NCBI GenBank assembly: GCA_017434775.1
Contig: JAFSGG010000032.1
Location: 1-54,097, forward strand
Source: Clostridia bacterium
Lineage (GTDB): Bacteria; Bacillota; Clostridia; Christensenellales; Aristaeellaceae
DNA length: 54,097 nucleotides
Direction: 5' to 3'
Shown: positions 4,998 through 33,134 of the stretch, piece after piece
How positions within the stretch are numbered: position 1 is the first letter of the stretch
Layout: each line of letters begins with the position of its first letter
The notes under the pieces: generated by a model
Told to the model about the DNA's origin: nothing
What the model saw: the letters and a program-made list of their open reading frames with translations, nothing else
The model's database searches: none
Made by a program: the position numbers and the translations under genes

Positions 4998-6359
4998 CTA
5001 TTTCAAAAACTTCTTGATTTTTTGCAGCTTTGCAGGGGAATAGGGCGGATAGCGGAAAGAAAAATCCATAAAGCGGCTCTTTTTCAGCACGGCCTTCTGA
5101 TTGGAGAAGGTATCGAAGGTGTATTTGCCGTGGTATTTGCCCATACCGCTCATGCCTACGCCCCCAAAGGGCAGATGGGAAGAAGCCAGATGCATGATGG
5201 TATCGTTGATGCAGCCGCCGCCAAAGGAAATTCTGCTCAGCACCTTTTCCTGGGCGGAAGCACGATTGGTGAACAGATACAGCGCCAGGGGTTTTTCCCG
5301 GACGGCGATTTGCCGGATGGCTTCGTCCAGCCGGTCGAAGGTAATCACCGGCAGGATGGGAGCAAAAATCTCTTCCTGCATGATGGGGGACGCCCAGGTG
5401 ACCCGATCCAGAATGGTGGGGGCGATGCGGATGCCGTCGCCGATGCCGCCGCAGTAGATAATCTCCTTATCCATCAGTTCCATGGCCCGGGCGTAATGCC
5501 GGGGAGAGATCATTTGGGGCCAGGCAGGGTTTTCCAGGGCGTTGCCGTAAAATTCCTGCCAGCAGGCGGCAATTTCCTTCAGCAGCTTCTTTTTCACGTC
5601 GGAATGCACCAGAAGATAATCCGGCGCCACGCAGGTTTGCCCGGCATTGAGGGCTTTGCCAAAGGCAATGCGCCGGGCAGCCAATTTGATATCGGCGGAA
5701 TCATCCACAATGCAAGGGCTTTTGCCGCCCAGCTCCAAGGTGGTGGGGGTCAGGTATTTGGCGGCCTTTTCCTGCACAATTTTGCCCACGGTGACGCCGC
5801 CGGTGAAAAAGATGTAGTCAAAATGCTCGTCCAGCAGCTGCTGGTTTTCCGTACGTCCCCCCAGCACCACGGCTGCCTGTTCGGCCGGGAAGCATTCGCC
5901 GATGATCCGGGCCATGAGATCACTGGTGGCAGGGGCATAATTGCTGGGTTTTAAAATAGCATGGTTTCCGGCGGCCAGTGCGCCGATGAAAGGCGCCATG
6001 GTGAGCAGGAACGGATAATTCCAGGGCGCCATGATCAGCACCACGCCGTAAGGCTCGCTGAGGATGCGGGATTTGGCCGGGAACAAAACAAGCGGTGTGC
6101 GCACCTTTTTCGGCGCTGCCCAGCGGTGCAGATGGCGGATGAAATGGCGGATTTCAGAAAGCACCATGCCCACTTCCGTCATATACCCTTCTTCCGGGCA
6201 TTTGCCCAGATCTTGCTGCAGCGCATGGCAAATATTCCCTTCCCGTCGCTGGATAATCTCCTGCAGCCTTTCCAGGGCAATGATGCGCTCATCCACGGAA
6301 TAGGGGTGATTCCGGGCGAAGGAATTGCGCTGTAATACTACCAGTTCGTGTACAGTCAT
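4998..6359 (-). CDS. NAD(P)-dependent aldehyde dehydrogenase (class 3-like)
   Basis: This 453-residue aldehyde dehydrogenase would oxidise aldehydes to carboxylic acids. The length and lack of an N-terminal extension fit the ALDH3/YwdH-type class. Visible motifs are the cofactor segment APWNYPF, the general-base glutamate in LELGGKSP, and the nucleophile in AGQTCVAPDY. The C-terminal LPFGGVGMSGMGKYHGKYTF is typical of class 3 enzymes. The start is ATG 6359, whose ATGA overlaps the TGA of mrfA (6356-6358). A longer reading upstream to 6461 lies wholly inside mrfA and is rejected. Translational coupling to a DNA-repair helicase hints at a role in aldehyde or chemical damage, but this is inference. 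Confidence 0.93.
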   Translation of the reverse strand: MTVHELVVLQRNSFARNHPYSVDERIIALERLQEIIQRREGNICHALQQDLGKCPEEGYMTEVGMVLSEIRHFIRHLHRWAAPKKVRTPLVLFPAKSRILSEPYGVVLIMAPWNYPFLLTMAPFIGALAAGNHAILKPSNYAPATSDLMARIIGECFPAEQAAVVLGGRTENQQLLDEHFDYIFFTGGVTVGKIVQEKAAKYLTPTTLELGGKSPCIVDDSADIKLAARRIAFGKALNAGQTCVAPDYLLVHSDVKKKLLKEIAACWQEFYGNALENPAWPQMISPRHYARAMELMDKEIIYCGGIGDGIRIAPTILDRVTWASPIMQEEIFAPILPVITFDRLDEAIRQIAVREKPLALYLFTNRASAQEKVLSRISFGGGCINDTIMHLASSHLPFGGVGMSGMGKYHGKYTFDTFSNQKAVLKKSRFMDFSFRYPPYSPAKLQKIKKFLK

Positions 6360-11276: not shown

Positions 11277-11343
11277 AATGATAATGGGTTACATATCTGG
11301 AAACACAAGTTAATTTACAAATTACTCTTTGGTGGTGTGGCAT

Positions 11344-14061
11344 ATGATCAATGGCAAGCGGGTCATCGGTGTTTGCATGACAAAACTGCATTGGTCCGGC
11401 CGTTCAGAATATCTGGACAGCCTGCGTTGCTATGCCTGTGAGAATAATTTCAAACTGATCATTTTCAACAGCTTTGTGGATTTCTATAAAAATGATGAAA
11501 ACGATCAGGGCGCCTGCAGCATATACGATGTAATCAACTATGATCTGGTGGATGCGCTGATCATTTTCGATAACAGTTTCAATAACAAGCAGTTGGTGCA
11601 TGAACTGGCGGAAAGAGCCAAAGCCCATCACACGCCGGTGATTGTGCTGGAGGGTAAATGCGACGGCTGTTTCAGCATCAACGGCGATTATGATGAAGCG
11701 TACGAGTCCCTGATGACCCATGTGATCCGGGAACACAATGCCCGGGATACATATTTTATGGCCGGCCGGAAGGAAGGGGATCCCACTTCCCAGCAGCGTA
11801 TTGAATGTTATCGACGGGCATTGAAAACCTGCGGCCTTCCTTTTGAAGAAGAGAGGGTGGGTTACGGCGAATTCTGGAGCGATCCGGCCAAGAAGATTGT
11901 GCAGCAGATGGTGGAAAGCGGAAAGAAGCTGCCGGACGCCATTTTCTGTGCCAATGACTATATGGCCATTGCAGTTTGTGATAAGCTGCAGGAATATGGT
12001 TTGCGTGTGCCGGACGATGTGATCGTCACCGGCTTTGATGGTACGGATGCTGCACGGTATGCCGTTCCCCAGATCACTACCTGCGCGGAAGACCAGAAGC
12101 TGCTGGCCCGGCTGAGCATGGAAACCGTAATGGCGGCATTGGACGGTGCGCCCTGCTGTGAAGTGAAGAATCCTTTCAAATGCATACTGACAGAAAGCTG
12201 CGGCTGCAAGCAGATGGAACACATGGACTTTCGCGATGTGGCTGCCCAGCTGCATGGTCAGGTGGATGCGGTGCAGATGCATGAAGACTATATGTATGCC
12301 TGGATGAACCGTATGTTCACTATTCAGGATATGAATGGCCTGTATACCGCAATTGCCGGCAGTATTCTGGAAAATTCCTATGTGTGTCTGAATTCCGATA
12401 TTATTGCCAGCATCACCGAAGGACGCAGCCGGCAGGAAACGCAGTTTACCGATCAGCTGGTGATTATTTCTTCCCGCTATACCGCCGCGGAAAAGAACGT
12501 AGGCACGTCCTTCCGGCTGAAGGATATGGTACCCGGGCTGGAAAGCTGGAGCCGGGATGATACCGTCTTTGTGCTCAATTCCTTGTATGTGGGGAAAATG
12601 GTGTGCGGCTTTTACGCCTACCGCACCGATCATTTATCCCAAAGCGCCCATAAGATCAAGCGGATTGTGAACACGGTGAATCTGGCGTTCTCCGTGGCCA
12701 TCAGTTATTATGACAAGGCCAATCTGCGCCTGATTGTGGAAAAGGCGGCCCTCACCAATCCGGTGACCCACCTGCCCAACCTGAAGGGCTCCATGAAGTG
12801 GTTCCAGGAATTCGGGACGGAAGAAAATCGGAAAAAGACTCTCTGCGTATCCGTTTACGGCATGCCCAAGTATGCCTATATTCAGGATAATTACGGCATT
12901 GATGCGGTGGAGGAAGCGGAAGTATTTGTGGCGGAAGCACTGAAGCTTGCCAATACGGATGATTGCTTCATCGGTCATATTGCGGACGACGAATTCCTGG
13001 TGATCAATTATTTTGATCCGGCCAGGTGCGATGTGAGCACGGCCATCAGCGAAACCATTGACCGGGCTACCAGCATGTTCTACAAGCTGGTAGAAGAATA
13101 CAATGGCGGCAGCGGCAAGGAATACTATGTGGAAGTGAACTGCGGCTGTTCTCCGGTGGATGCCGGCTGGGAACTGAATCTGGAAAGTTTCATCAAGTTT
13201 GCCAAGGGCGAAATGTATATGAACCGTCTCAAGAGCGGTATGGGCGCCGTGGTGAAGGAAGAATCGGCCCCCGGTGAATACTATAAGGCTTTCAATCTGC
13301 TCATTGAAAAGAACCTGTTCTCTTATCATTTCCAGCCCATCGTCAGCATCAAGGATGGTTCTATTTACGGCTATGAAGCGCTGATGCGCACCGATAAATC
13401 CATCGGCATGAATCCTCTGGAAGTGCTGGAAGCTGCCCGGGAATATAATCGGCTGTATGAAATTGAAAAGGCCACCATGTACAATATCATGCAGCATTAT
13501 TCCGCTCGGAAAGAGGAATTCTGCGGCAAAAAGGTGTTCATCAATACCATCCCCGGCTATTTCCTGAAGGACCAGGATATGCAGCAATTGATCACGCTGC
13601 ACGGCAGCTATATGGATAGCTTCATCTTTGAACTGACGGAGCAGAACACCGTTTCCGATGATGAACTGAACGCCATTCGTAATTTCAGCGGCGGGGAAAA
13701 GAGCGGTCGTATTGCCATTGACGATTACGGTACGGGCCATTCCAATATGGCCAACCTCCTGCGCTATGCGCCCCGGATCATCAAGATTGATCGGTTCCTC
13801 ATCGAAAACATTCACCGCAACCAGAACAAACAGCTCTTCGTTCGCAGCACGGTGGAGTTTGCCAAGCTGAACGGCATTCTGGTGCTGGCGGAAGGGGTGG
13901 AAACATCCAACGAACTGCACACCGTCATCGATTTGGGTGTGGATCTGGCCCAGGGGTATTATCTGGGCCGGCCGGTGCCTGATCCCATTGCGGAGATCTC
14001 CCGGGATATTCAGCGCGAAATTCTGGAAGCTAATCCGCTCTTTGGTCAGGACAGATCCTGA
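11344..14061 (+). CDS. LacI-like sensor / degenerate GGDEF / EAL c-di-GMP protein
   Basis: This 905-residue modular signalling protein has no signal peptide. Residues ~5-290 resemble the periplasmic-binding/LacI sugar-binding fold without a DNA-binding helix (VCDKLQEYGLRVPDDVIVTGFDGTDAA; then TESCGCK). Residues ~310-465 look like a GAF-type linker. A GGDEF domain at ~470-640 has ADDEF (547-551) in place of GG(D/E)EF, so cyclase activity is doubtful. The C-terminal EAL domain is well preserved: E678-A-L, IDDYGTGHSNM, IIKIDRFLI, LAEGVET and AQGYYLG. It is therefore probably a ligand-sensing c-di-GMP phosphodiesterase. ATG 11344 follows GGTGGTG; a TTG at 11329 is less likely. It is monocistronic. 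Confidence 0.9.
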   Translation: MINGKRVIGVCMTKLHWSGRSEYLDSLRCYACENNFKLIIFNSFVDFYKNDENDQGACSIYDVINYDLVDALIIFDNSFNNKQLVHELAERAKAHHTPVIVLEGKCDGCFSINGDYDEAYESLMTHVIREHNARDTYFMAGRKEGDPTSQQRIECYRRALKTCGLPFEEERVGYGEFWSDPAKKIVQQMVESGKKLPDAIFCANDYMAIAVCDKLQEYGLRVPDDVIVTGFDGTDAARYAVPQITTCAEDQKLLARLSMETVMAALDGAPCCEVKNPFKCILTESCGCKQMEHMDFRDVAAQLHGQVDAVQMHEDYMYAWMNRMFTIQDMNGLYTAIAGSILENSYVCLNSDIIASITEGRSRQETQFTDQLVIISSRYTAAEKNVGTSFRLKDMVPGLESWSRDDTVFVLNSLYVGKMVCGFYAYRTDHLSQSAHKIKRIVNTVNLAFSVAISYYDKANLRLIVEKAALTNPVTHLPNLKGSMKWFQEFGTEENRKKTLCVSVYGMPKYAYIQDNYGIDAVEEAEVFVAEALKLANTDDCFIGHIADDEFLVINYFDPARCDVSTAISETIDRATSMFYKLVEEYNGGSGKEYYVEVNCGCSPVDAGWELNLESFIKFAKGEMYMNRLKSGMGAVVKEESAPGEYYKAFNLLIEKNLFSYHFQPIVSIKDGSIYGYEALMRTDKSIGMNPLEVLEAAREYNRLYEIEKATMYNIMQHYSARKEEFCGKKVFINTIPGYFLKDQDMQQLITLHGSYMDSFIFELTEQNTVSDDELNAIRNFSGGEKSGRIAIDDYGTGHSNMANLLRYAPRIIKIDRFLIENIHRNQNKQLFVRSTVEFAKLNGILVLAEGVETSNELHTVIDLGVDLAQGYYLGRPVPDPIAEISRDIQREILEANPLFGQDRS

Positions 14062-32287: not shown

Positions 32288-32443
32288 CCACAGGAATGAA
32301 TCTTATGCCATAGCCAAAATGCAAAAATGGAGAAAAAATTCATATAAATTGCTGCCAAAAAAGAGAAAAAGCCATAAGACGCTGCAAAAAAGCGATCCAG
32401 GATCAAAATATGCAGAAAAATTATATAATTTTCAAAATAATAC

Positions 32444-32490
32444 TTGACAAATAATATTATTGTGTTAATATTATATCGAAAATAATATTA
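32444..32490 (+). promoter_or_regulatory. promoter with three TAATATTA palindromes (putative operator)
   Basis: TTGACA (32444-32449) and TAATAT (32466-32471, 16-bp spacer) form a promoter. The identical 8-bp palindrome TAATATTA occurs at 32452-32459, 32466-32473 and 32483-32490, covering the spacer, the -10 and the start region. This layout fits autorepression by the adjacent GGDEF protein, which ends in a ribbon-helix-helix-like segment. Sequence-level repeat is certain; the regulator is inferred. Confidence 0.6.
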
Positions 32491-32504
32491 CGGAGGTCGT
32501 ATTC

Positions 32505-33134
32505 ATGAAAACCAACAAAGTAAACGAAGTGCTTCAGTTCCCCGACGGTCAGGCGTTTGAAGAAAAACTGACAGTGATTCTGGCGGATGAGAATGCAGGT
32601 GTAAATGCGGTGATTGCCCTGCTGGACGTGGATCATTTTATGCATGTCAACGATGATTTCGGCCATGATGCAGGGGATCGGGTGCTGATTGAACTGGGGC
32701 AGTACCTGCAAAAGGGCGTTGAGGGCCAGGGCGAAATCTACCGTATTCAGGGTGACGAATTTGGCATTCTGTTCAATGCCGATCTGGAAAAGGAAGATGC
32801 ATTCCTGCTGATGGAACAGCTGCGCCGGGGCTTGGATATCAAACTGCCCGATGGCGAACAGGTTACCATTTCCGTGGGCATTGCCGCTGCCTTCGAAGAT
32901 GCATCCCGCTATCAGGAACTGGTGCGCAAGGCAGAAAGTGCCATGTTCCGGGTAAAATATGCCGGTCGGAATAAGGTGGCCCTGTGCCGGGAAGAAAAAA
33001 TGATCCCCAAAACCAGCCATTACACGTCCGATCAGCTCAAGCGGCTCACCAAACTGTCCAAACGGGAAGGCATCGGCGAAGCAATTTTGCTGCGGGAAGC
33101 GCTGGATATGCTGCTGAAGCGGTATGACGTATAA
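32505..33134 (+). CDS. GGDEF-domain protein with C-terminal ribbon-helix-helix DNA-binding segment
   Basis: This 209-residue protein has a GGDEF domain at ~20-160: DVDHFMHVNDDFGHDAGDRVL (residues 41-61) is the conserved substrate/metal region, followed by QGDEF (82-86; first Gly of GGDEF is Gln), ISVGIAAA and GRNKV. There is no RxxD inhibitory site at the usual place. Residues ~169-207 (KTSHYTSDQLKRLTKLSKREGIGEAILLREALDMLLKRY) match the ribbon-helix-helix pattern of CopG/ParD regulators: a short strand, helix, glycine turn and LLREAL helix. The fusion suggests a one-component transcription factor with a nucleotide-sensing domain. Cyclase activity is not assured. The start follows CGGAGG. Confidence 0.88.
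   Translation: MKTNKVNEVLQFPDGQAFEEKLTVILADENAGVNAVIALLDVDHFMHVNDDFGHDAGDRVLIELGQYLQKGVEGQGEIYRIQGDEFGILFNADLEKEDAFLLMEQLRRGLDIKLPDGEQVTISVGIAAAFEDASRYQELVRKAESAMFRVKYAGRNKVALCREEKMIPKTSHYTSDQLKRLTKLSKREGIGEAILLREALDMLLKRYDV

Follow-up and report, generated by a model that had tools for sequence, protein, structure and literature searches.

According to our analysis, a 209-residue protein encoded in a 54,097-nt stretch of DNA from a Clostridia bacterium (contig JAFSGG010000032.1; hereafter the window) is a fusion of a GGDEF domain with a C-terminal ribbon-helix-helix (RHH) domain and belongs to a real Clostridia family of small GGDEF proteins with an RHH tail. We estimate a probability of roughly 0.7 for the reading that the members of this family are transcription factors that repress their own gene; that a nucleotide tunes this repression we propose with less confidence. 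The RHH tail and the autoregulation are strongly supported by the conservation of the family and by the occurrence of a predicted operator almost only before its gene. The features of the window are as follows.

32423..32443, no strand assigned: operator-like copy O1, ATATAATTTTCAAAATAATAC, with 4 mismatches, ending where the -35 element begins
32437..32457, no strand assigned: overlapping weaker repeat with 4 mismatches, 14 bp beyond O1
32444-32449, plus strand: promoter -35 element TTGACA, by consensus match only
32466-32471, plus strand: promoter -10 element TAATAT after a 16-nt spacer, by consensus match only
32468..32488, no strand assigned: predicted operator O2, ATATTATATCGAAAATAATAT, an inverted repeat with 2 mismatches to the family consensus
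32492..32496, plus strand: GGAGG ribosome-binding sequence, read from the sequence
32505..33134, plus strand: gene of the GGDEF-RHH fusion, 209 aa, from the ORF, Pfam and family homologues
32547..32975, plus strand: GGDEF domain, residues 15-157 (Pfam PF00990)
32748-32762, plus strand: QGDEF loop, residues 82-86, within the GGDEF domain
32991..33131, plus strand: conserved C-terminal tail with the RHH domain, residues 163-209 (PF12651 above cut-off)
about 33000-33023, plus strand: presumed recognition strand of the RHH tail
33024-33125, plus strand: RHH match in Pfam (PF12651), residues 174-207

The initial annotation had described the protein as a GGDEF domain with QGDEF at residues 82-86, joined to a C-terminal RHH segment, and both parts were confirmed. 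The GGDEF domain scored 94.8 bits against a Pfam cut-off of 23.8 (E 6e-27), and the RHH_3 model scored 24.8 bits against 21.6. The RHH_3 alignment covers positions 10-43 of the 44 in the profile, so that the helices are included and the strand is left out. Antitox_RHH (PF20605) stayed below its cut-off in the tail, as did a RelB-like antitoxin match when the tail alone was compared with NCBIfam. The matches of the whole protein in NCBIfam were mostly cyclase and phosphodiesterase models, with only the general GGDEF domain model above cut-off. At E ≤1, Pfam listed neither an EAL domain nor a LuxR-type HTH for the 209-residue protein; membership of the PucR/CdaR group is not indicated by Pfam either, with GGDEF_2 at 14.5 bits against a cut-off of 24.5 and no HTH match. 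The only solved RHH relative found by sequence was 7by2_A, a weak match (E 0.11), and the best stretches of the 53 solved sequences that match the family profile all end by position 195 of 235. In the register of CopG, which we take to apply to the tail, T170 and H172 would point toward the DNA and residues 171 and 173 toward the core. Across 63 proteins (69 minus 6 near-duplicates) neither T170 nor H172 varies, while residue 171 is S, A, T or V and residue 173 is Y or F; in five class members the T170 and H172 positions read S and Y.

The search for homologues of the same fusion revealed that the pairing of the two domains is not confined to the window. Scanning 84,980 species genomes with a pattern, an approach that detects close relatives only, yielded 39 loci with 55-86% identity, whose titles name Lachnospiraceae, Butyrivibrio, Acetatifactor, Clostridiales or Clostridia and in many cases the rumen or gut. 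The family profile was built from 39 rows, namely the window and 38 of these loci; L039, where the gene is truncated at the contig end, was excluded from the alignment, the upstream counts and the neighbour clustering. All 39 aligned members match both GGDEF and RHH at E ≤0.05. The gene was found in 8 of 29 genomes of the window genus (E ≤1e-25) and in 38 of 300 genomes sampled from the family (E ≤1e-45), where all 39 matches extend to position 234 or 235 of 235. In the order sample, 11 of 396 genomes matched at 1e-38, each from the window's own family; in the class sample, the matches at 1e-30 (8/391) were the window's genome and seven genomes of five other families. RHH_3 reached 17.0 bits, under the 21.6 cut-off, in L134, one of three class members scanned. 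Many of the compared genomes are incomplete assemblies. The tail was never found standing alone: its profile hit only fusions, one in each of 12 of 120 genomes (E ≤1e-4). Plasmid copies were likewise not found, since none of the 191 matching records spans 80% of the query, and the 15 plasmid matches listed are annotated as ordinary cyclases.

The tail is the most conserved block of the protein, with a mean major-residue frequency of 0.86 over 70 proteins against 0.67 for the GGDEF domain. The loci closest to the window (L013-L015) have fusions 70-86% identical to that of the window, tails 94-96% identical, and flanking genes 96-97% and 89-90% identical. Because the identity of the fusion is far below that of its tail and of the flanking genes, the GGDEF part diverges fast and the tail hardly at all. 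Many members among L021-L051 carry about 25-30 extra N-terminal residues with an RPITVxDH-like motif, which the window protein lacks.

The -35 and -10 elements of the window fit a sigma-70 promoter with 10 of 12 consensus bases, and an alternative -10, AATATT, shifted by one base, scores equally. The initial annotation had read three identical palindromes in this promoter as binding sites. Three copies of TAATATTA do occur there, at 32452, 32466 and 32483, and they are the only ones in the 54 kb, against 0.22 expected; none of 100 shuffles reached three. The element conserved across relatives is, however, a 21-bp inverted repeat, ATATTATTTCnGAAATAATAT, of which the window has one good and one weaker copy, and for this reason the reading with three separate TAATATTA operators was dropped. 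Most of the second and third TAATATTA falls inside the halves of O2, which overlaps the last bases of the -10 as well as the expected start, while the first lies mostly inside the weaker repeat at 32437-32457, which also spans the -35. At the position of O1, stronger copies are present in relatives such as L013, L014 and L116.

The 21-bp repeat was recognised from upstream regions set side by side. At ≤3 mismatches, 37 of 39 genes have it in the 300 bp before them (shuffled sequences: mean 0.04, maximum 1), the set being the window and 38 loci, with L031, whose upstream region is 48 bp, scored as a miss. In the wider set, which leaves out L031, it precedes 58 of 62 genes. The start of L030 was set at 5971 in the side-by-side reading and at 5872 afterwards. 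Placed relative to TTGAC, a copy (≤4 mismatches) begins 39-44 bp past the start of this element in 44 of 62 upstreams; copies 24-26 bp past it were found in 11/62, including 8/8 of the window genus, and copies 20-23 bp before it (≤4 mismatches) in 18/62, including 7/8 of the genus. These upstream and spacing counts are not blind, because the consensus was read from the same upstreams, and a check split by genus still chose its training sites with the 21-bp consensus. A k-mer count is free of the consensus, and its most enriched 9-mers were ATATTATTT, present in 52 of the 62 upstreams, and AAATAATAT, present in 49, where about one was expected. Pairs of exact half-sites in facing orientation and 14-bp register, a count that is likewise not blind, occurred 49 times and in none of 60 shuffles.

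The conservation of the palindromes before homologues, proposed earlier as a check, therefore holds within the window's family of genomes and fails in the seven distant class members (L129-L135), whose best upstream matches to the 21-bp consensus have 5-8 mismatches. Two further loci, L046 and L126, have no operator even at ≤4 mismatches. Some of the seven distant upstreams, for example those of L130 and L134, carry other AT-rich palindromes at or beside TTGACA. A co-variation of recognition strand and operator was considered and rejected: L131-L135 differ in both, but in L129 and L130 the consensus is missing and the presumed recognition strand is the same as in the others, so that no recognition code can be claimed.

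Whole-genome scans, which test the placement of the consensus, connected the repeat with the gene. Within the genus (≤3 mismatches), all eight gene-bearing genomes carry the site and 11 of their 11 sites precede the gene, whereas of the 21 gene-less genomes a single one, G027, carries any (two sites). Within the family (≤2 mismatches), the site is present in 25 of 38 gene-bearing genomes, the other 13 having none at this threshold, vs. 3 of 262 gene-less ones (Fisher p 8e-24); the gene-bearing genomes have 29 sites in total, every one of them in the 300 bp that precede the gene. The gene occurs twice in G270, and each copy is preceded by a separate site. A reversed control pattern occurred in 2 of 29 genus genomes and 2 of 300 family genomes. 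Sought with the full consensus, a larger regulon was not found, as nothing lay away from the gene in the gene-bearing genomes. The sites of gene-less genomes have no common target: those of G027 (L060 and L064, at 2 and 3 mismatches) precede genes that are unrelated, that of G186 (L113) is near the start of an unrelated ORF, and that of G191 (L106) has no evident target.

A pattern of exact half-sites alone matched once in each of 9 of 12 genomes, in all nine cases at the gene; among the 12, G035 had no half-site match at all. With one mismatch allowed, scattered extra matches appeared in these genomes, as did matches of the reversed control, in 5 of the 12. Among the matches read, one kind recurs in G000, G005, G044 and G152, and in the first three it precedes a PadR-like regulator gene. 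Pfam PadR is above cut-off in L136 and L138, and L137 is PadR-like by its similarity to both; in L139 the sequence is cut, and no PadR-like ORF was called there. A palindrome like ATACTATnCnnnGTATAATAT lies over the PadR-like promoter in L136 (G000:C3), L137 and L138, and the next ORF there has about 350-390 aa. Because the middle of the recurring kind is unlike the TTTCnGAAA of the operator, it is probably the PadR-like regulator's own operator and less likely a second, weaker target of the fusion protein. Another pair with one mismatch is common to G185 and G205, near a transporter-like gene, and singletons were seen in G093 and inside an ORF of G000 (G000:C52).

A site nearly confined to one gene, lost together with that gene, whose product has a DNA-binding tail, leads us to infer that the product itself binds the 21-bp repeat; judged from the genomes, the distribution of the operator is the signature of a dedicated autoregulator. 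Of the autorepression that the initial annotation had considered natural, the autoregulation is thus upheld by a site that lies almost only before the gene, and the sign is suggested by the copy over the -10 and the start. Repression is favoured because copies lie over or after the expected start in most upstreams, although the copy that adjoins the -35 could serve an activator as well. Pairing in the manner of known RHH proteins, the C-terminal RHH domains would bind the halves of the repeat, whose half-sites start 14 bp apart; in the window they would find a good copy at the -10 and start region and a weaker one adjoining the -35 on its upstream side. An occupied operator would exclude RNA polymerase, and the protein would in this way limit its own amount.

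The GGDEF domain would most likely contribute a pairing that depends on the nucleotide. D41, D43, N49, D58, D84 and K151 are invariant in all 70 proteins in which pocket and tail were compared, and in the window D41, N49, D58, D84, E85 and K151 are all present, with Q in place of the first G of GGDEF. By comparison with PleD, these would be a metal-binding D, an N and a D in contact with guanine, the acids of the GGDEF loop and a phosphate-binding K. The loop reads GGDEF in 48 of 63 proteins and AGDEF, QGDEF, RGDEF or SGDEF in 11 more. In seven of 70 (L090, L115, L116, L126, L130, L131 and L132) the loop lacks its second G or an acidic residue, L133-L135 not being counted since the script flagged an alignment gap there; the altered loops include GGDQF (in L116), GGDAF, AADRF, TRDQF and NKDEF, and the pocket residues and the tail are retained. 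An RxxD inhibitory site is common in diguanylate cyclases but not required. At the position where we assume this site by analogy with PleD, it is absent in 63/63 proteins, none of which has R at 73 or D at 76 (E73 and G76 in the window). Cyclase activity is therefore likely in most of the closer members, as judged from their motifs, and doubtful in some others.

EAL domains were found in all eight genomes tested, and the window's own genome has four other GGDEF-type matches, which together make a turnover of c-di-GMP plausible. The window also encodes, at 11329-14061 on the plus strand and about 18 kb upstream of the fusion, a 910-aa protein with a periplasmic-binding-like part, a weak GGDEF match just under cut-off and an EAL domain; in G005, about 17 kb separate the fusion gene from an EAL match. 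No PilZ domain was found at E ≤0.001 in eight genomes (G000, G005, G185, G205, G156, G117, G035 and G110), where controls matched in 5 of 14, and EAL domains are present in these PilZ-less genomes. A search for c-di-GMP-I riboswitches gave no match, its controls being equally silent.

Because the seven members with altered loops keep the tail, the GGDEF domain may sense a nucleotide besides, or instead of, making c-di-GMP. The retention of pocket and tail in all 70 proteins, despite some doubtful cyclases, is the pattern expected from nucleotide sensing, without amounting to proof. Occupation of the active-site pocket by GTP or c-di-GMP would determine the arrangement of the RHH dimers and thereby tune the repression, a control that would stand in for the missing RxxD feedback site. 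That nucleotide binding affects DNA binding we rate only slightly below an even chance. Put more fully, the protein might be a “trigger diguanylate cyclase,” a self-repressing c-di-GMP enzyme in which GTP or c-di-GMP sets the spacing of the RHH dimers on an operator of 14-bp register; this we propose tentatively, at somewhat under even odds.

The RHH tail could instead keep a cyclase at a low and steady level as a plain dosage autorepressor, with DNA binding indifferent to GTP and c-di-GMP, which we regard as possible, though less likely than not. An operator found almost only at the gene, an xGDEF loop intact in most members and a plausible c-di-GMP turnover, with EAL proteins in 8/8 genomes, would all agree with such a protein, yet the members with degenerate loops that keep pocket and tail suggest a role beyond synthesis. 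Nor need the same placement of sites mean repression: the protein at O1 might aid RNA polymerase at the -35, with O2 secondary, as an autoactivator for which PdeL provides a precedent (PMC5052742). The copies before TTGAC, present in nearly all upstreams of the window genus, would suit it, but the copies over or after the expected start (44/62 and 11/62, the latter with the whole genus) and a window -35 that is already full consensus make it unlikely.

Two further explanations separate the repeat from DNA binding by the tail. If the repeat belonged to another regulator and the RHH tail served, for example, oligomerisation, then the distant members that have the same presumed strand and lack the consensus would be accounted for; such a regulator would, however, have to act at a single promoter and to lose its site along with the gene, and gene-less genomes almost never carry the site, so that we consider it quite improbable. 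The repeat might also form an RNA hairpin in the leader, a reading that would agree with the symmetric changes seen (ATATGATTTCAGAAATCATAT) and with an O2 located at the expected start or beyond it. Since other copies precede the -35 and would not be transcribed from this promoter, and since the half-sites keep their 14-bp register, we consider a hairpin a very remote prospect.

The fusion gene appears to stand alone, because just 3 of the 38 other loci have the window's two flanking genes beside it and widely shared neighbour families are lacking: among ORFs ≥90 aa none had a fixed place, and the largest cluster covered 8 of 39 loci at scattered positions. The clustering took the longest ORF of either strand, sometimes that of the wrong strand, and the flanking genes were checked separately. 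The role of a type II antitoxin was rejected, as no conserved adjacent toxin gene was found among ORFs ≥90 aa, a size limit that could hide a toxin gene of very small size. Downstream of the fusion, the window segment 33138-33320 (plus strand) begins three bases past the stop codon with a perfect promoter (TTGACA, 17 nt, TATAAT). About 150 nt after this promoter are predicted to fold well (z -3.55) and are strongly conserved in L013-L015; the segment ends in a hairpin with a run of T, and a CNNM/CorC transporter gene follows. It had no Rfam match even at E ≤5, and only 1 of 46 predicted pairs had a two-sided change; it is possibly an undescribed leader RNA or riboswitch.

No GGDEF-RHH fusion was described in the open-licence literature searched, although one may exist in print elsewhere. 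The nearest analogue is PdeL (YahA) of E. coli, a “trigger phosphodiesterase” that joins a LuxR-type HTH to an EAL domain and activates itself at low c-di-GMP (PMC5052742, as far as the text available goes). In the portions of the literature covered, direct DNA binding by a c-di-GMP enzyme is described for PdeL alone, which acts in breakdown (PMC5052742; PMC12564702). The window protein may work alike, without being a member of that group. Both combine a c-di-GMP enzyme domain with a DNA-binding domain and an imperfect palindrome at their own promoter (PMC5052742, available part), binding being predicted in the present case. The EAL domain of PdeL, however, breaks c-di-GMP and the protein activates, whereas here a GGDEF domain, of the kind that makes c-di-GMP, is joined to RHH, with a site suggesting repression.

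Other known proteins resemble the fusion in one part only. CdbA of Myxococcus xanthus is an RHH protein linked to c-di-GMP, and its exposed strand residues K8, S10 and Y12 resemble K169, S171 and Y173 here, in an uncertain register (PMC7156744, available part). According to the same portion, CdbA is a small protein that binds c-di-GMP through its RHH and acts genome-wide on the nucleoid, whereas the window protein has its RHH joined to a GGDEF domain and a strong predicted site at one promoter. MabR, of the PucR type, also unites a GGDEF fold with a DNA-binding domain in one transcription factor, but its GGDEF-like domain is PF17853, with HGTWL for the catalytic motif, and its DNA-binding domain is a PucR HTH (PMC11617747, available part); the fusion has PF00990, a nearly intact active site and RHH. 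The RHH_3 and Antitox_RHH proteins (PF12651, PF20605) share the DNA-binding domain family of the tail, and unlike them the fusion has its RHH at the C-terminus of a GGDEF domain and no conserved partner toxin gene was found. CdeR, in the part of its description available, is a Ner/Nlp-like HTH protein that raises the expression of a cyclase gene and is not a fusion.

Overall, if the proposed reading is true, product feedback in this family would have moved from the inhibitory site of the enzyme to its own promoter, and in the members with altered loops the GGDEF domain would be purely a nucleotide sensor. The family would then provide a counterpart of PdeL on the side of synthesis, with a target of nearly one gene, in which it would be testable in vitro whether a GGDEF domain can serve a transcription factor as its ligand switch.
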